Shown: positions 7,026-57,741, counted from the stretch's first letter. The stretch is 64,000 nt of DNA from an uncultured Alphaproteobacteria bacterium (GCA_943787745.1 CALSNJ010000002.1:1236668-1300667), one strand, 5' to 3'. A program made the numbers and translations. The notes: a model not told the origin generated them from the letters alone.

Positions 7026-7177
7026 GGCGCGTCCGGCGCTTTCCCATCATTTCAACAGGCTCACAAACTAGTCGGCAAAGCTTGAGTCGCAGAGACGATT
7101 CTTCCTGTGGAAAGAACAGCGAACGGGGATAACCCGCACACCACCTTTCACAAAGGCCCTTGGGACCCTATATTCAG

Positions 7178-7470
7178 GGTGTCGGGCTTGCCCGGCTATG
7201 ACGATAAACGTTTATCGCAATAAACGTTCGGACCCGGGGGCAGTACCCGGCGCCTCCACCATTTCCCGGTTTCCTGGCTTTCGCCAGACCGTTATGGGGG
7301 CGAAACAGGATCGACGGGCGCGTAAAGGGTTAACTTTCGTTCGGCATGGTACCACCGATATCGGGCCATATTCATAGGTGCCAACGACAATGTTGAAACC
7401 TTCGCTGTTGCTGCTTAATAAGCAGAAATAAGCGCGGTTCGGGGGGCACCGGGCAACAGAAGCCCCCCAC
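7178..7470 (+). ncRNA. ssrA: Circularly permuted two-piece tmRNA
   Basis: tmRNA rescues stalled ribosomes and appends a degradation tag. The acceptor piece comes first: T-stem CCGGG/CCCGG around a 7-base loop, then CGCCTCC and ACCA ending at 7261. A short hairpin-containing spacer (7262-7295), removed in other alphaproteobacteria, precedes the coding piece starting GGGGGCGAAACAGGATCGAC at 7296. GGGGGCG pairs with CGCCTCC over 7 bp with a G-U at the third pair, the alanyl-tRNA synthetase identity signal. The tag frame runs 7380-7415 (ANDNVETFAVAA) with tandem stops TAA TAA. A GGGGGGC/GCCCCCC stem (7441-7468) closes the RNA. The 5' boundary is estimated from a possible -10 TATATT at 7169; both ends are approximate. 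sspB follows. Confidence 0.93.
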
Positions 7471-7601
7471 TTAAATCAAACTGCAGCCCTTGCTGCGCCC
7501 GATAGGATTTTCACGAATCGCCTGCCTGCTCGAAACTGTACCCAGATTTTTCAAGTAGCCCCGTTGACCCACGCGCCCGAGCGCGCTTCGATCGCGATGC
7601 C

Positions 7602-24746: not shown

Positions 24747-25148
<402 letters not shown>

Positions 25149-51083: not shown

Positions 51084-51512
51084 CTAGTCGTTCTCGAAGG
51101 CCGCGCGCACCGTTGCGGGGATCTCACAGGATTTTATCTGCCCTGATCCATCCGGATCACGTTGCACACAAACCCGTTCCTCTGTGCCTTCTGCAACCGC
51201 AACACCACTCTCCGACTGACTGACGCGATGCGTAACGGTGAAAGACCGTGATCCCCAGCGCGTGACTTCGCTTTCGATCTCGATGTTGTCTTCCCAGCGC
51301 GCCGGGGAAAGGAAACGAGACTGGGCATCCACGATCGGGGTTAGAACACCCAGATCAGCTTCCAATGTCTTCAGGGACATCCCCGCATCCTCAAACAACT
51401 GATGAGTGCCGCGATCGAACCAGTCAAAGTAGTTGGGGTAGTAGACAATCTGGGCCGGGTCACAGTCACCGAAACCAATCTTGAGATGTGTCGTGGTTTT
51501 CCGTGATGTCAT
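51084..51512 (-). CDS. 4HBT-family acyl-CoA thioesterase
   Basis: This is a 142-residue hot-dog-fold thioesterase. The N-terminal block GFGDCDPAQIVYYPNYFDWF holds the catalytic Asp of the 4-hydroxybenzoyl-CoA thioesterase type. The conserved RFLSPARWEDNIEIESEV and SFTVTHRV follow. The start at 51512 lies 2 bases after the upstream flavin monooxygenase stop, so it is the last gene of a three-gene operon. The likely job (inference) is hydrolysis of the CoA product made by the hydroxylase, for example a hydroxyaryl-CoA. A general clean-up thioesterase is the alternative. Confidence 0.88.
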   Translation of the reverse strand: MTSRKTTTHLKIGFGDCDPAQIVYYPNYFDWFDRGTHQLFEDAGMSLKTLEADLGVLTPIVDAQSRFLSPARWEDNIEIESEVTRWGSRSFTVTHRVSQSESGVAVAEGTEERVCVQRDPDGSGQIKSCEIPATVRAAFEND

Positions 51513-51513
51513 T

Positions 51514-52638
51514 TCATCCCTGCCCTTCGTACTTTGCCATGAAGCCGGGCGCGAATTTTCGCAGCCGGTCATCATCAATACGACCGGACCGGGTCATATA
51601 GGCATAGCCAAAATCAAGCGGGCTGAGCTTCATATGATCAGCAAAGTCCTCATACCAACGCGCGCTCGACGTCGCGGCGTTGACGATTTTTTCAACGATC
51701 GGCTTTCGCGCATCTTCATAGCTGCGCAGCGCCCCGGGTAAATCATCGGGTTTCGCCTCGAGTGCCTCGATCAGCGCAATGACATCCTCCAGCGCAAGCC
51801 GCGTCCCCGAGCCAATAGAGAAATGCGCCGTGTGCAGGGCATCCCCCACAAGCACCATGTTCAGGTGTGACCAGCGGTCGTTCCAGAGCACCGGGAAATT
51901 CCGCCAGTTGGACTTGTTGATTATCAGCGGTTTGCCATCGAGTGTGTCCGAGAAGATCTCCGCGCATTTGATCGCGGAGTCCGCTTCGCTCAATGTCGCA
52001 AAGCTCGCCTTCTCCCAGGTGTCGCGCGCGCATTCGACCAGAAATGTGCTCATTTGCGGGGTATAGCGATAGTGATGGGCGTTAAAAGGCCCGTACTCGG
52101 TCTCGATGAATGTTTGGGTCAGGGTCTCGAACGGCTTTTCAACGCCGTACCACGCAAACTTGTTGGGCAGGTAGGACAGCGACATCGCAAAGTCACCCTC
52201 AAAGGCACGTCGCACGATGGAATTGATGCCATCCGACGCCACGATCAGATCGTAATCTGCCAGTTCGACGGGAGAACTGATCGTCGTTTCAAACGCCAGT
52301 TCGGCACCTACAGCCAGAGCCCGTTCCTGAAGCAACTGCAGGAGATGCAGACGCCCGATGGAGGAAAACCCGACGCCATCGATGGTGACCTTTTCGCCCT
52401 TGTGGACGAGGGTCATATCCTCCCAGGTTTCCATTTCAGGGGTGATCAGATCGTGGGTTTCGGGATCATCAGCGCGCAGAAACTCCAGCGCGCGATCGGA
52501 AAACACCACACCGAACCCGAATGTTGCATCAGGCGGGTTCTGCTCAAAAACCTGCACGGTGGCGTCCGGGTGTCGCTTTTTCCAAAGCGTGGCGAAATAC
52601 AGTCCGGCGGGGCCCCCACCAACCACGGCAATACGCAT
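51514..52638 (-). CDS. FAD monooxygenase resembling the N-terminal half of salicylyl-CoA 5-hydroxylase / 2-aminobenzoyl-CoA monooxygenase
   Basis: This is a 374-residue flavoprotein aromatic hydroxylase. FAD motifs: VVGGGPAGLYFATLWKK at the N-terminus, the mid DLIVASDGINSIVRR and the C-terminal VGDALHTAHFSIGSGTRLAL. The phrases NPPDATFGFGVVFSD and HFSIGSGTxLALED closely recall salicylyl-CoA 5-hydroxylase (SdgC) and aminobenzoyl-CoA monooxygenase. Those proteins are about twice as long and carry a C-terminal old-yellow-enzyme domain that is absent here. The substrate is probably an aryl- or related acyl-CoA, but this is inferred. It sits between a BKACE-like gene (23 bases upstream) and a thioesterase (1 base downstream). 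Confidence 0.85.
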   Translation of the reverse strand: MRIAVVGGGPAGLYFATLWKKRHPDATVQVFEQNPPDATFGFGVVFSDRALEFLRADDPETHDLITPEMETWEDMTLVHKGEKVTIDGVGFSSIGRLHLLQLLQERALAVGAELAFETTISSPVELADYDLIVASDGINSIVRRAFEGDFAMSLSYLPNKFAWYGVEKPFETLTQTFIETEYGPFNAHHYRYTPQMSTFLVECARDTWEKASFATLSEADSAIKCAEIFSDTLDGKPLIINKSNWRNFPVLWNDRWSHLNMVLVGDALHTAHFSIGSGTRLALEDVIALIEALEAKPDDLPGALRSYEDARKPIVEKIVNAATSSARWYEDFADHMKLSPLDFGYAYMTRSGRIDDDRLRKFAPGFMAKYEGQG

Positions 52639-52661
52639 AACAAATACTCCAGTGTGCAGAA

Positions 52662-53555
52662 TTAAGCCGCGAGCGGCTTCAACCCCATGATTTCACGTGC
52701 TTCCTCCGGGGTCGCCGGCTCCATGCCAAGCTCGCGGATAATACGCACGATTCGTTCGACCAGTTGCACATTGTTGGCCAGCACGCCACGCTCATAGTAG
52801 AGGTTATCTTCAAGACCGACACGAACATGGCCGCCCAGCATAAGTGACTGCAACGCCGCATTCAACTGGGACGGCCCAATCGCGCTAACATTGAAGTTCG
52901 CGCCCTCGGGCATCAAATCGACCATGTCCTGCAATATCTTCGGGGAATACGGCATCGCACCCTGAAACCCCCGGTCGGCGCCGAGTACGAAATTGATGAA
53001 ATACGGCGCTTCATCAAGACCCGCCTCCAGCAGGCGATTCACGTCCTGCAGCAGATGGGTCGGGCTGAACACCTCCCATTCGGGCTTGATGCCCTTGGCC
53101 TGCATCTTGGTGGCGAGTTCGCGACACCGCTCAGGCGAGGTGTTCATCAAGATTTCCCGGCCCTCGAAATTTGCGACAATGGTCGTCGGATCAAGGGTGC
53201 ACATCTCGGCGCCGGCCTCGAGGCCCTTCAAACGCTCTTCCCAGGATATTTCCAGAAACCCGTCCGTGGCTTCCTTCAGCATATCGCCGTTGATGCCGCC
53301 GCCAGTGGAGTTGTTGATGATGATGTCGCACTTGGCGCGGATACGTTCGTTGATATCGCGGTAAATCGCCGGATTACAGGTCGCCTCATCATCCGGGCGC
53401 CGCGCATGGACTGCGACAACAGAAGCACCTGCTTCGTAGCAACGATATACGTCCTCAGCGATCTCTTCTGGCTGGGTCGGAATATTCGGGTTCTGCTTTT
53501 TGCTCGCCATCCCGCCTGTCGGCGCGATGGTTACGATGACTTTACGTTCGGCCAT
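52662..53555 (-). CDS. BKACE-family beta-keto acid cleavage enzyme (DUF849)
   Basis: This is a 297-residue TIM-barrel protein of the 3-keto-5-aminohexanoate cleavage (Kce/BKACE) family. Family members condense a beta-keto acid with acetyl-CoA, giving acetoacetate and a new acyl-CoA. Recognisable blocks: VTIAPTGGMASKKQNPNIP, DIIINNSTGGGINGD, NTSPERCRELATKM and the C-terminal VRVGLEDNLYYERG with the conserved Glu. The first zinc motif, normally HxH (LHLHARDP), reads VAVHARRP: the first His is Ala and the following Asp is Arg. Only one of the two histidines remains, so metal binding may differ. It is the first gene of the operon with the flavin hydroxylase and the thioesterase. Confidence 0.9.
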   Translation of the reverse strand: MAERKVIVTIAPTGGMASKKQNPNIPTQPEEIAEDVYRCYEAGASVVAVHARRPDDEATCNPAIYRDINERIRAKCDIIINNSTGGGINGDMLKEATDGFLEISWEERLKGLEAGAEMCTLDPTTIVANFEGREILMNTSPERCRELATKMQAKGIKPEWEVFSPTHLLQDVNRLLEAGLDEAPYFINFVLGADRGFQGAMPYSPKILQDMVDLMPEGANFNVSAIGPSQLNAALQSLMLGGHVRVGLEDNLYYERGVLANNVQLVERIVRIIRELGMEPATPEEAREIMGLKPLAA

Positions 53556-53627: not shown

Positions 53628-55424
53628 TCAACCCGTTTTCAGGGGCGCCGTCGCTGTGTCGAGCCAGACACGTGCTGCACCATCCACCAGCGGGCCGATC
53701 TCTTCGCGAACCCGCGCGTGATACTCATCAAGCCAAACACGTTCGTCATCGCTCAAAAGACCAACCTCGATCACGGTCCGGTCGATCGGCGCAAGAGTCA
53801 GGGTTTCAAACCCCAACATCGCGCGCTCGCCACCCGCTATTTCCGATGGCGGGCTGACAGCCACAAGGTTTTCAATTCGAATCCCGTATGCACCCGTTTT
53901 GTAGTACCCGGGCTCATTGGACACGATCATGCCGGGCTGAAGCGCAGTGCCGGACCCGACCTTTGATATCCGTTGCGGTCCCTCATGCACCCCGAGATAG
54001 CTTCCCACGCCGTGCCCTGTGCCGTGGTCATAGTCCAGACCGGCCTGCCAGAGCGCCTGACGCGCCATGGCATCAATCTGTGACCCGTTGGTCCCTTCCG
54101 GGAAACGCAGCGTAGCAAGCGCGATGTGACCTTTGAGCACGCGGGTGAAACGATCCCGCATCTCGTCGCTGGGATTGCCGATTGCGACGGTGCGGGTAAC
54201 ATCGGTCGTACCATCGAGATACTGCGCACCGGAATCGACCAGATAGAGCTCACCATCGCCAAGCAGACGGTTGGTGTCCTCGCTCACCCGGTAATGAACA
54301 ATCGCACCATTGGGCCCCGACCCCGAGATCGTTCCGAAACTCAGATCTCGAAAGTGCTCACCCGGCGCGCGGAACGCGGCGAGCTTGTCGGCAACGGTCA
54401 TTTCATCAATGCCATCACCCGGTGCGGCATCCGACAACCAGTGCAGGAACCGAACCAGTGCGGCACCATCGCGTTTGTGGGCGGCCCGGGATCCGGACAG
54501 TTCCGCCTCGTTCTTGACCGCTTTTGACATGGTCACGGGGTCGTCCCCTCGTGCAATCTTCACTTCAGCTGCTGCCAACCGGTCAAATACCCATGACGCG
54601 CCGGTATCAGGGCAAGCCCAGACCCGCTTGCCGGTCAACGCACCCAGACAGGCACTCAGGTCTTCAGGTGCGTGAACCCTCACGCCATCTCCAAGATGCG
54701 TCAAGACCGGGTCAGAAAGCTTATCCGGTGCCACAAACCAGTCGATCTCACCTGCCGCGTGTACCACTGCAAAACTCAATGGCAACGGCGTGTGGTCCAC
54801 ATCATTGCCGCGCACATTCAAGAGCCAAGCGATCGAATCCGGCTGCGTTAGCACAACGGCATCAAGACCATTATGCCTCAGAGAGGCGGCAAGGTCGGCC
54901 CGTTTGGCGGCGCTGCTGCGTCCAGCAAACTCAATATCGTGGGGCACCACTGGCTCCAAAGGGGGCGACGGGCGGTCATTCCAAATCGCATCGACGAGGT
55001 TCTGTTCCACAGGCACAAGTTCTGCACCGGCGTCCGACACTGCGCGCGCGAGCCGCTCACGCTGGGTTTGCGTGTGCAGCCAGGGATCAAAGCCCAGCTT
55101 CATGCCTTCAGAAAGCGTGTTGTCCAGCCAACTCGCGACCGGTTCTTCGACTAGATGGTGATAGCTGTACAGCCCTTCATCCACCTGATCGCGCACCTGC
55201 AGCGTATAGCGGCCATCCACGAAGATCGCCGCCTGGCCCGCCAGAACCACAGCCGTTCCCGCCGATCCGTTGAAGCCGGTGAGCCAGAACAGGCGTTCGG
55301 CATCGGGCGGCAGAAATTCGTTTTGGTGCGCATCTGCGTGCGGCACAATAAAACCGTCGAGGTCTTGCTCAGACATCGCAGCGCGCAATGCCGACAGGCG
55401 CTCGGAAGGTGACAAGTTGGTCAT
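53628..55424 (-). CDS. Aminopeptidase P family (M24B) metallopeptidase
   Basis: This is a 598-residue Xaa-Pro aminopeptidase of the long type. There are two creatinase-like N-domains (RLSALRAAMSEQDLDGFIVP; RADLAASLRHNGLDAVVL). The C-terminal pita-bread domain has all five metal ligands: the Asp pair in DSGAQYLDGTTDVTR, His in GTGHGVGSYLG, Glu in SNEPGYYKTGAYGIR and Glu in GFETLTLAPID. It removes N-terminal residues preceding proline from peptides in the cytoplasm; no signal peptide is seen. ATG 55424 was chosen (MTNLSPSERL); 55430 is also possible. It lies on the same strand as the BKACE operon, 72 bases upstream. Confidence 0.93.
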   Translation of the reverse strand: MTNLSPSERLSALRAAMSEQDLDGFIVPHADAHQNEFLPPDAERLFWLTGFNGSAGTAVVLAGQAAIFVDGRYTLQVRDQVDEGLYSYHHLVEEPVASWLDNTLSEGMKLGFDPWLHTQTQRERLARAVSDAGAELVPVEQNLVDAIWNDRPSPPLEPVVPHDIEFAGRSSAAKRADLAASLRHNGLDAVVLTQPDSIAWLLNVRGNDVDHTPLPLSFAVVHAAGEIDWFVAPDKLSDPVLTHLGDGVRVHAPEDLSACLGALTGKRVWACPDTGASWVFDRLAAAEVKIARGDDPVTMSKAVKNEAELSGSRAAHKRDGAALVRFLHWLSDAAPGDGIDEMTVADKLAAFRAPGEHFRDLSFGTISGSGPNGAIVHYRVSEDTNRLLGDGELYLVDSGAQYLDGTTDVTRTVAIGNPSDEMRDRFTRVLKGHIALATLRFPEGTNGSQIDAMARQALWQAGLDYDHGTGHGVGSYLGVHEGPQRISKVGSGTALQPGMIVSNEPGYYKTGAYGIRIENLVAVSPPSEIAGGERAMLGFETLTLAPIDRTVIEVGLLSDDERVWLDEYHARVREEIGPLVDGAARVWLDTATAPLKTG

Positions 55425-55531
55425 GCCCATGAAGCTACGCGACGCTCTCGCACAAGACAATCGGCCCTTGCGCGGCTAAGATGCGGGCTTCAAATTTGCA
55501 CTCTGAGATGCATCCAATGGAGAGAAACACT

Positions 55532-56092
55532 ATGACCCGACTTGATCCCCCGCCAGGACCCAGCATCAGCGTGGAAGACATGCAGACACGCGTGGCTCGT
55601 TTCAAGGAACTCAAGGGCAGTGATCTGTGTTTTATGGACCAGCGCATTCCCGGCCATGAAAGAGAAATGATCAACCTCCTCGGCCTCGGTGTTACCGAGA
55701 ACGAGGACGACCCTGATCTGGCGCCCAAGGTTGGCGCGGCACACGGTTTCGCCAATGGTTTTGCCAAATGTGAACCCGGATGCGGTGCTGCCTTGCACTG
55801 GCACGAAACCGAAGAGGTCTTCATGCCACTCGATGGTACATGGTCGATCTACTGGCGTGATGGCGAAGAAGAGCGTGAAGTCATTCTGGAAGCAGGCGAC
55901 ACCGTATCTGTGCCCATCGGCATCTATCGCGGCTTCAAAAATGTCGGCGATACGCCAGCCACATTGCACTTCATCGTCGGCGGTCCCGACACAGGCAAGG
56001 TCCACTGGCATCCGTCCGTGATCGAAGCCGCCCGCGAAACGGGCCTCGCAGTCGACGACAACGGCCTGCTGGTCGAGGTCGCAGCCGAATAG
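55532..56092 (+). CDS. Single-domain cupin protein
   Basis: This is a 186-residue protein with one cupin barrel. Motif 1 is ALHWHETEEVFMPLDG with the HxH and Glu metal ligands. Motif 2, normally PxGxxHxxxN, reads PIGIYRGFKN, so the last His ligand is Arg. The C-terminal FIVGGPDTGKVHWHP contains two further histidines. Function is unknown; it may be a sugar or small-acid isomerase, a dioxygenase relative or a binding protein. ATG 55532 follows GGAGAG by 7 bases. The GMC oxidoreductase begins 17 bases downstream and is likely co-transcribed. Confidence 0.82.
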   Translation: MTRLDPPPGPSISVEDMQTRVARFKELKGSDLCFMDQRIPGHEREMINLLGLGVTENEDDPDLAPKVGAAHGFANGFAKCEPGCGAALHWHETEEVFMPLDGTWSIYWRDGEEEREVILEAGDTVSVPIGIYRGFKNVGDTPATLHFIVGGPDTGKVHWHPSVIEAARETGLAVDDNGLLVEVAAE

Positions 56093-56109: not shown

Positions 56110-57741
56110 ATGCGCGACCTCGGAACATTTGATTATGTAATCGTCGGCGCCGGTTCGGCGGGCTGCGTGCTCGCCAACCGGCTGTCGGCTGACCCGGATG
56201 TCTCTGTTCTGCTTCTTGAGGCAGGAGGCAAGGACAACTATTTCTGGATCAATATTCCTGTCGGCTACCTCTATTGCATGAACAACCCACGCACCGACTG
56301 GTTGTTCAAAACCGAAGCCGAAGAAGGCCTCAACGGTCGCGCGCTTGATTACCCTCGTGGACGCGTTCTGGGTGGCTGTTCCTCGATCAACGGCATGATC
56401 TATATGCGTGGCCAGTCGCGGGACTACGACCAGTGGCGCCAACTCGGCAATACAGGCTGGGGTTGGGACGATGTGCTGCCCTATTTCCTCAAGTCAGAAG
56501 ATCAGGCTGCCGTCCCCACAGACGATGTACATGCGGACGGTGGTGAGTGGCGCGTGGAGAACCAGCGCCTCTCCTGGGAAGTGCTCGATGCCTTTCAGGA
56601 CGCTGCCGCTCAGGAAGGCATTCCGAAAACCAATGATTTCAATCGCGGTGACAATCTTGGCTGCGGGTACTTCCACGTCAACCAGCGGAGCGGAACCCGC
56701 TGGAGCACATCAAAAGGCTTCCTCAAGCCCGCCATGGGTCGGTCCAATCTGACCGTTCTGACCCATGCAGAAGCGGACAAGATCGAGTTTGATGGCACCC
56801 GTGTCACCGGCCTGACCCTGCGCCAGAAAGGCGATCCTGCGCGGGTTTCAGTAGCCGGTGAACTCATTCTCTCGGCGGGCTCGATCGGCAGCCCGCAAAT
56901 TCTCGAACTCTCAGGCGTCGGCAATCCCGAAGTTCTGCGTGAACACGGCGTTGCGGTCGTCCACGCCCTCAACGGCGTCGGCGAAAACCTGCAGGATCAT
57001 TTGCAAGTCCGCGTTGCGTACAAGGTCCATGGTGTGAAAACCCTGAACGAGCGCGCCAACAGCCTGTTTGGCAAAGCGGGGATCGCGCTCGAGTATCTTC
57101 TCAAGCGTTCCGGCCCGATGTCGATGGCACCTTCGCAATTGGGAGCCTTTGCCAAGTCCGACCCGTCACTCGAGTTCCCGAACCTGCAGTATCACGTCCA
57201 GCCGCTGACGCTGGAGAAGTTCGGCGAACCGCTTCACCCCTTCCCCGCCTTCACCGCCAGCGTGTGCAACCTGCGGCCGGAAAGCCGCGGCTCGGTGCAT
57301 ATCAGGAGCGGGACGCCGGGCGACAAACCATCGATCCGTCCGAATTATCTATCCGCACCGGCCGATCGTCGCGTTGCCGTCGAAGCCATTCGCATGACAC
57401 GCCGGATCGTGAACCAGCCCGCGATGGCGCAGTTCTCTCCCGAAGAATTCAAGCCGGGACCAAGCATCCAAAGCGATGATGATCTGGCACGTGCGGCCGG
57501 CGATATTGCGACCACGATCTTCCATCCGGTCGGCACCGCCAAGATGGGCGATGATGAGATGTCGGTGGTCGATGACCGACTGCGGGTCCATGGGCTTCAG
57601 GGACTGCGTGTTGTAGATGGTTCTGTGATGCCGACCATCACAAGCGGCAATACAAATTCACCGATCATCATGATCGCTGAAAAGGCCGCCGACATGATCC
57701 GCGAGGATCGCCGCACAGGAACAGCCAAGGCCGCCGCCTAG
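56110..57741 (+). CDS. GMC-family FAD alcohol dehydrogenase (choline dehydrogenase-like)
   Basis: This is a 543-residue glucose-methanol-choline oxidoreductase that oxidises an alcohol to an aldehyde or ketone using FAD. Motifs: FDYVIVGAGSAGCVLANRLS (FAD), PRGRVLGGCSSINGMIYMRG (GMC signature 1), GELILSAGSIGSPQILELSG (signature 2) and the C-terminal active-site regions FHPVGTAKMG and SGNTNSPIIMIAEKAADM. It resembles choline and polyethylene-glycol or other alcohol dehydrogenases; the substrate is not predictable. No signal peptide is evident. It is paired with the cupin gene, and its end overlaps convergent prmA by 4 bases. Confidence 0.93.
   Translation: MRDLGTFDYVIVGAGSAGCVLANRLSADPDVSVLLLEAGGKDNYFWINIPVGYLYCMNNPRTDWLFKTEAEEGLNGRALDYPRGRVLGGCSSINGMIYMRGQSRDYDQWRQLGNTGWGWDDVLPYFLKSEDQAAVPTDDVHADGGEWRVENQRLSWEVLDAFQDAAAQEGIPKTNDFNRGDNLGCGYFHVNQRSGTRWSTSKGFLKPAMGRSNLTVLTHAEADKIEFDGTRVTGLTLRQKGDPARVSVAGELILSAGSIGSPQILELSGVGNPEVLREHGVAVVHALNGVGENLQDHLQVRVAYKVHGVKTLNERANSLFGKAGIALEYLLKRSGPMSMAPSQLGAFAKSDPSLEFPNLQYHVQPLTLEKFGEPLHPFPAFTASVCNLRPESRGSVHIRSGTPGDKPSIRPNYLSAPADRRVAVEAIRMTRRIVNQPAMAQFSPEEFKPGPSIQSDDDLARAAGDIATTIFHPVGTAKMGDDEMSVVDDRLRVHGLQGLRVVDGSVMPTITSGNTNSPIIMIAEKAADMIREDRRTGTAKAAA

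Follow-up and report, generated by a model that had tools for sequence, protein, structure and literature searches.

A marine alphaproteobacterial operon that may link aroylacetate cleavage by an atypical BKACE-family protein to the salicylyl-CoA/gentisyl-CoA route

We describe a three-gene operon of a marine bacterium, located on the minus strand at positions 53555-51084 of the window, which is a 64,000-nucleotide stretch of DNA from an uncultured Alphaproteobacteria bacterium (GCA_943787745.1 CALSNJ010000002.1:1236668-1300667). The first gene encodes a member of the BKACE/DUF849 family (BKACE), and it is followed by genes for a stand-alone flavin hydroxylase (FMO) of the salicylyl-CoA 5-hydroxylase type and a 4HBT-type thioesterase. 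We give about an even chance to the reading that the encoded proteins would make an aroyl-CoA from an aroylacetate by means of BKACE, then gentisyl-CoA and finally gentisate. The second and third steps would correspond to the known salicylyl-CoA/gentisyl-CoA route and the first would open a new way into that route, so that a known degradation route would probably gain here an unusual entry needing no ligase.

Results

Organisation of the operon

The gaps between the genes are 23 bases (BKACE/FMO) and 1 base (FMO/thioesterase), and the thioesterase starts with an ATG at 51512, one base past the FMO stop. Ribosome-binding sequences of the GGAG type precede BKACE and FMO, and the base composition of the operon resembles that of the neighbouring genes (Table 1). 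The surroundings consist of housekeeping genes (lpxC, recN, ligA, peptidase and uvrD-like genes, named by eye from the sequence), with ligA beyond the thioesterase in the opposite orientation, and the order of these neighbours is retained across the family. Genes in unannotated loci were called by a purpose-written script; gene calls in the two AT-rich loci L039 and L147 were poor, and neighbours from these loci were left out.

In the family loci read, a cupin (window 55481-56092) and a GMC oxidoreductase (56110-57741) adjoin the M24 peptidase. A cupin of related look lies near a cluster of BKACE with boxBC (L098), and cupins are also present near the ligase locus (L133, L135) and within a Variovorax cluster (L160). 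In two relatives a LysR regulator gene is divergent from BKACE (L046:4805-5743, L047:5944-6849); it is missing at that position of the window. An ordinary permuted alphaproteobacterial tmRNA and an RNase P RNA are located at window 7142-7471 and 24755-25147.

Table 1. Positions of the operon genes, their motifs and the upstream neighbour in the window.
Feature	Position	Strand	Details
BKACE/DUF849-family protein, AxH clade	52662..53555	-	297 aa; PF05853 287 bits
BKACE residues 48-53, A-V-H-A-R-R, Ala replacing first His of HxH	53397..53414	-	five aligned solved relatives
Stand-alone flavin hydroxylase (FMO), salicylyl-CoA 5-hydroxylase type, N-half homologue	51514..52638	-	374 aa; NF006101 408 bits
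FMO GxGxxG FAD-binding motif, residues 7-12	52603..52620	-	G7, G9 and G12 invariant in 20 relatives
FMO GD motif, G265-D266	51841..51846	-	invariant in 20 relatives
4HBT-type hotdog thioesterase	51084..51512	-	142 aa; PF13279
Thioesterase Asp18	51459..51461	-	aligned with catalytic Asp17 of 4-hydroxybenzoyl-CoA thioesterase
M24 peptidase, upstream neighbour	53628..55460	-	place fixed in family loci

The hydroxylase and the thioesterase

The best NCBIfam match of FMO is NF006101, the bifunctional salicylyl-CoA 5-hydroxylase, which it matches with 408 bits, the match being confined to profile positions 1-381 of 768. With a single half in its chain FMO stays below the bifunctional criterion of 1078 bits, and comparison with this profile shows the gene to be without the oxidoreductase half. 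The first-pass annotation, which had described an operon of three families on one strand and a hydroxylase reduced to the monooxygenase half, is borne out on both points by the profile scores, the short gaps and the extent of this match. The GxGxxG, DG and GD motifs of class A flavin hydroxylases are all found in FMO, and the nearest solved fold to its predicted model (pLDDT 76) is VioD (TM 0.71-0.76), the VioD/KMO-like fold being that of class A flavin hydroxylases.

A search of 289 alphaproteobacterial genomes yielded stand-alone FMO homologues in open frames of about 320-415 aa (main group 50-64% identical) and fused homologues in open frames of about 745-1170 aa (40-48% identical). The two types fall on opposite sides of a branch in a 59-sequence tree, with SH-aLRT values of 97 for the fused and 86 for the stand-alone proteins. 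Judged by tree and contexts, the window FMO belongs with those FMOs that have genetic links to aroyl-CoA ligase and gentisate genes. An orthologue of this ligase, 57-66% to the Bradyrhizobium ligase, lies directly beside the stand-alone FMO in seven sampled alphaproteobacterial genomes. The FMO loci of Bradyrhizobium, Paracoccus and Agrobacterium contain the ligase, a divergent thioesterase and gentisate dioxygenase, with a fumarylpyruvate hydrolase-like gene in Bradyrhizobium and Paracoccus; the same gene set serves the conversion of salicylate through salicylyl-CoA and gentisyl-CoA to gentisate (PMC4600096).

The window genome also encodes a stand-alone old-yellow-enzyme protein (L167:9350-10516; G000:C1, about 164350-165516), adjoining a carnitine-dehydrogenase-like gene. 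Among NCBIfam models it is matched best by the oxidoreductase half of NF006101 (336 bits; NamA 322). It shares 37-43% identity with the fused halves, and it is possible that this protein is a separate partner of the stand-alone hydroxylase.

The thioesterase scores 63 bits to 4HBT_2 (PF13279) and matches the solved structures 1bvq (E 1.1e-17) and 5wh9 (E 5.8e-19). Its residues D18 and D33 align to the catalytic Asp and the second active-site Asp of 1bvq; in 4-hydroxybenzoyl-CoA thioesterase Asp17 is catalytic and a second Asp is found in the active site (PMC516016). The protein is a probable gentisyl-CoA/aroyl-CoA thioesterase. One relative has no thioesterase gene at its FMO locus and carries a 43%-identical one in the gentisate dioxygenase region (L102).

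A dispersed gentisate route in the window genome

Outside the operon, the window genome contains genes for a gentisate 1,2-dioxygenase (G000:C1:274831-275826; 547 bits against a cut-off of 442) and for an aroyl-CoA ligase 58% identical to the FMO-linked ligase (G000:C2:892016-893617). Ligase, hydroxylase, thioesterase and gentisate 1,2-dioxygenase are all contained in this one genome and, as the ligase and the dioxygenase lie at other loci, the gentisate route is present but dispersed. The first-pass annotation had held that the operon is not the known gentisate route; we reject this claim because of these two genes and because the FMO clade is linked elsewhere to ligase, gentisate dioxygenase, fumarylpyruvate hydrolase-like protein and thioesterase. 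Its companion claims fared better: the tree does not place FMO with unrelated monooxygenases, and hydroxylation of a CoA thioester followed by thioester hydrolysis is what homology and context argue for, making the predicted FMO and thioesterase steps well supported.

An FAH-family gene near the dioxygenase of the window genome has other hydrolases as its best NCBIfam matches, and a separate benzoyl-CoA box cluster is found on G000:C4. Copies of a two-gene transposase-like pair lie near the gentisate dioxygenase (L097:2086-3215) and near the aroyl-CoA ligase (L129:12085-13214).

The AxH clade of BKACE proteins

BKACE is assigned to PF05853 with 287 bits against a cut-off of 24.8 and retains the RVGLEDN segment, with R245, E249 and D250. 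AxH is found in the window BKACE and in 26 of 26 clade members, whereas HxH is present in 11 other homologues and in the five aligned solved relatives; the AxH proteins form one clade (SH-aLRT 99). The first His of HxH, which we take to be a zinc ligand in the Kce structure, is missing in this clade, so the usual chemistry cannot be assumed. The clade is further characterised by its own FINxVLGADRGFQGA segment and by a Met (Met16 in the window BKACE) at a Kce Glu position, presumably that of Glu14. Close relatives of the window BKACE are rare, being found in 3 of 385 alphaproteobacteria, 4 of 398 genomes in the phylum and 12 of 351 in one betaproteobacterial family.

The database label '3-keto-5-aminohexanoate cleavage', a name from lysine fermentation, is probably wrong for this protein. 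Activity of BKACEs in vitro on benzoylacetate and 4-hydroxybenzoylacetate is recorded in what PMC4922564 relates of Bastard 2014. Cleavage of beta-ketoadipate, suggested for other BKACEs located in pca clusters (PMC8963497), was considered as a role for the window BKACE and discarded, no pca-type context being seen for the AxH clade.

Genomic context of BKACE

The pairing of BKACE with FMO is more than coincidental: a close copy of BKACE is present in 12 of 24 family genomes and lies directly beside FMO in nine of these 12, across two genera, where it occupies the FMO-neighbour place held by the ligase elsewhere; these adjacencies, being counted inside one family, are non-independent events. 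The full trio is kept at fewer loci (window, L046, L047). As to whether the three genes are neighbours in other genomes, the BKACE-FMO adjacency is kept in the family and found again within one Variovorax cluster, although the exact trio is not universal.

Two further genomes of the genus carry a 96%-identical BKACE that instead adjoins boxB and boxC, both above curated cut-offs, which represent another aroyl-CoA oxygenation system. As both of these BKACEs nest inside the FMO-linked genus group of the tree, the box association is probably the result of one relocation; it hints that the substrate is benzoyl-type rather than salicyl-type, or that several aroylacetates are used. At L136 (G289:C108) a benzoate-CoA ligase type gene remains at the usual box locus, from which boxB and boxC are missing, and the same genome carries boxBC beside BKACE elsewhere (L099).

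The alternative that survives best is an ordinary dispersed gentisate route, in which the unlinked ligase makes salicylyl-CoA for FMO and the thioesterase while BKACE is an unrelated passenger. The ligase orthologue and the gentisate dioxygenase of the genome are consistent with it. So are the close relatives L045, L051 and L053, which keep FMO and thioesterase with BKACE missing from the operon (BKACE is located elsewhere in two genomes of this set, and a search of the L051 genome for a close copy found none), and genome G404, in which an 85%-identical BKACE has acyl-CoA dehydrogenase and crotonase-type genes for neighbours and FMO is missing there. Nevertheless, the adjacency to FMO in two genera, its recurrence in the Variovorax cluster together with gentisate dioxygenase, and the occurrence of other clade members beside boxBC or an acetophenone-carboxylase-like module all argue for a functional link, and we consider a passenger BKACE unlikely, if by no means negligible.

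Independent support for the proposed role of BKACE is provided by the Variovorax cluster and by Sphingomonas plasmids. The cluster, on a plasmid of Variovorax boronicumulans, comprises gtdA, FAH-family, thioesterase, BKACE (65%) and 3-hydroxyacid dehydrogenase type genes and continues with acyl-CoA dehydrogenase, crotonase, FMO (52%; 371 bits to NF006101) and AMP-ligase. The plasmids of Sphingomonas bisphenolicum and Sphingobium yanoikuyae carry genes for a carotenoid oxygenase family protein, aldehyde dehydrogenase, thioesterase and BKACE (64%), the latter adjoining biotin carrier, biotin carboxylase, carboxyltransferase and HAD phosphatase, with pobA nearby. Likened by gene type, this carboxylase and phosphatase are those of HpeCBA-HpeD, and HpeCBA with HpeD makes hydroxyphenyl-beta-ketopropionates (PMC9618137). 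A plasmid of Massilia putida shows a divergent LysR, BKACE (73%), a gentisate dioxygenase-like protein (269 bits, below the cut-off), FAH-family, isomerase, dehydrogenase, crotonase, ligase and acyl-CoA dehydrogenase genes.

Ligase, acyl-CoA dehydrogenase, crotonase and hydroxyacyl-CoA dehydrogenase-type genes are present in the Variovorax and Massilia clusters, where none of the stretches read has an annotated thiolase. These clusters could suit a protein that cleaves a CoA ester (aroylacetyl-CoA), through a retro-Claisen reaction of thiolase-like or hydrolytic kind, and not the free acid by exchange with acetyl-CoA. Even though the altered metal-site motif points in the same direction, the nearby dehydrogenase resembles enzymes of free hydroxy acids and the upstream genes of the Sphingomonas plasmids are expected to yield free aroylacetate; cleavage of the CoA ester by the AxH protein appears to us rather improbable.

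A nitrogen analogue of the proposed pathway has still less to recommend it. BKACE would convert 2-aminobenzoylacetate to anthraniloyl-CoA, FMO would hydroxylate this at position 5 and the thioesterase would free 5-hydroxyanthranilate, and FMO could indeed fit, since it should be no less a homologue of the N-half of 2-aminobenzoyl-CoA monooxygenase-type enzymes (the profile test covered the salicylyl-CoA model only). However, the dioxygenases of both the window genome and the Variovorax cluster are above the gentisate 1,2-dioxygenase cut-off and well under that of 5-aminosalicylate dioxygenase, and we hold the analogue to be a distant prospect.

Very improbable, finally, is a carnitine-type module, in which BKACE would cleave 3-dehydrocarnitine and the thioesterase hydrolyse betainyl-CoA with FMO incidental: other AxH-clade BKACEs are found near a carnitine-dehydrogenase-like protein and/or a thioesterase, and several adjoin a dehydrogenase with L-carnitine dehydrogenase as best NCBIfam match and a thioesterase near, but these matches (246-283 bits) are far under the carnitine cut-off of 414, the window-family thioesterase tracks FMO and the dioxygenase locus and not BKACE, the window operon has no carnitine-dehydrogenase-like gene, and the Variovorax cluster holds FMO and gentisate dioxygenase too.

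Discussion

In the mechanism that we propose, BKACE would transform an aroylacetate, most likely (2-hydroxybenzoyl)acetate, and acetyl-CoA into salicylyl-CoA and acetoacetate, so that no ATP-dependent ligase would be needed for the thioester. FMO would then convert salicylyl-CoA, with O2 and NAD(P)H, to gentisyl-CoA, from which the thioesterase would release gentisate and CoA. The gentisate would next undergo cleavage by the gentisate 1,2-dioxygenase that the genome encodes at another locus; salicylate could still enter by the unlinked aroyl-CoA ligase. Families, motifs, adjacency and genome content are read from the sequence, and from them we infer every reaction, above all the first one, that of BKACE with its 2-hydroxy substrate. 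Our proposal sharpens the earlier idea of a unit fed in by BKACE, which would make the aroyl-CoA itself. The operon holds no gene that would make the aroylacetate, and the only lead to a source is an unlinked 3-hydroxyacid dehydrogenase-like gene (45%) of the window organism.

For the AxH clade as a whole we advance, with a little less than even confidence, the reading that it is a separate type of aroylacetate-cleaving enzyme whose metal site has been remodelled. It would pass aroyl-CoA directly to aroyl-CoA oxygenating enzymes (the salicylyl-CoA-type hydroxylase here, BoxAB in sister genomes) and so offer marine alphaproteobacteria and the hosts of catabolic plasmids a ligase-free entry to CoA-dependent aerobic aromatic degradation. 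When acetophenone is degraded anaerobically, the aroylacetate is instead activated by a ligase and then cut thiolytically (PMC5214803). Our literature search found no paper linking the aroylacetate activity of BKACEs to a role coupled with aroyl-CoA hydroxylation. The operon and the clade contexts would give this activity a role and would explain how aroyl-CoA can arise, with no dedicated ligase, from carboxylated aryl ketones or from phenylpropanoids with a shortened side chain, and a BKACE clade with an altered metal-site motif poses a testable mechanistic question.

Among the closest known systems is the WA46 sdg pathway (PMC4600096), with which the window genome shares a homologous type of hydroxylase, the thioesterase step, gentisate 1,2-dioxygenase and ligase; in contrast, the window genes are dispersed, the hydroxylase is linked to BKACE and not to the ligase, and it does not include the oxidoreductase half that belongs to the NF006101 form. 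The acetovanillone pathways of Sphingobium SYK-6 (VceA/VceB) and Rhodococcus (Hpe) (PMC9618137, PMC11837543) likewise lead from an aroylacetate to an aromatic acid. SYK-6 has the aroyl-CoA thioesterase VceB, comparable to the predicted thioesterase step of the window, and on the Sphingomonas plasmids AxH relatives adjoin Hpe-like carboxylase genes; the difference lies in the flavin hydroxylase, which in the window would be placed between cleavage and hydrolysis (VceA is set beside it by description only). With the BKACE family (Kce, 2y7d; the groups of Bastard 2014 in so far as PMC4922564 presents them) the window BKACE shares the Pfam family and the STGG-like, PE-E and RVGLEDN motifs, and it departs from Kce-type members in having AxH for HxH, Met16 for a Kce Glu and the altered FINxVLGADRGFQGA segment, its identity to HxH members being about 45% or less. 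The thioesterase resembles 4HBT class I and the Bacillus halodurans gentisyl-CoA thioesterase (PMC516016) in its FGDCDPA motif, catalytic Asp and second Asp, BH1999 being likened by motif. The nearest solved structure to FMO is the tryptophan hydroxylase VioD (3c4a, 8gqr; 30% identity), which acts on a violacein intermediate rather than on a CoA thioester.
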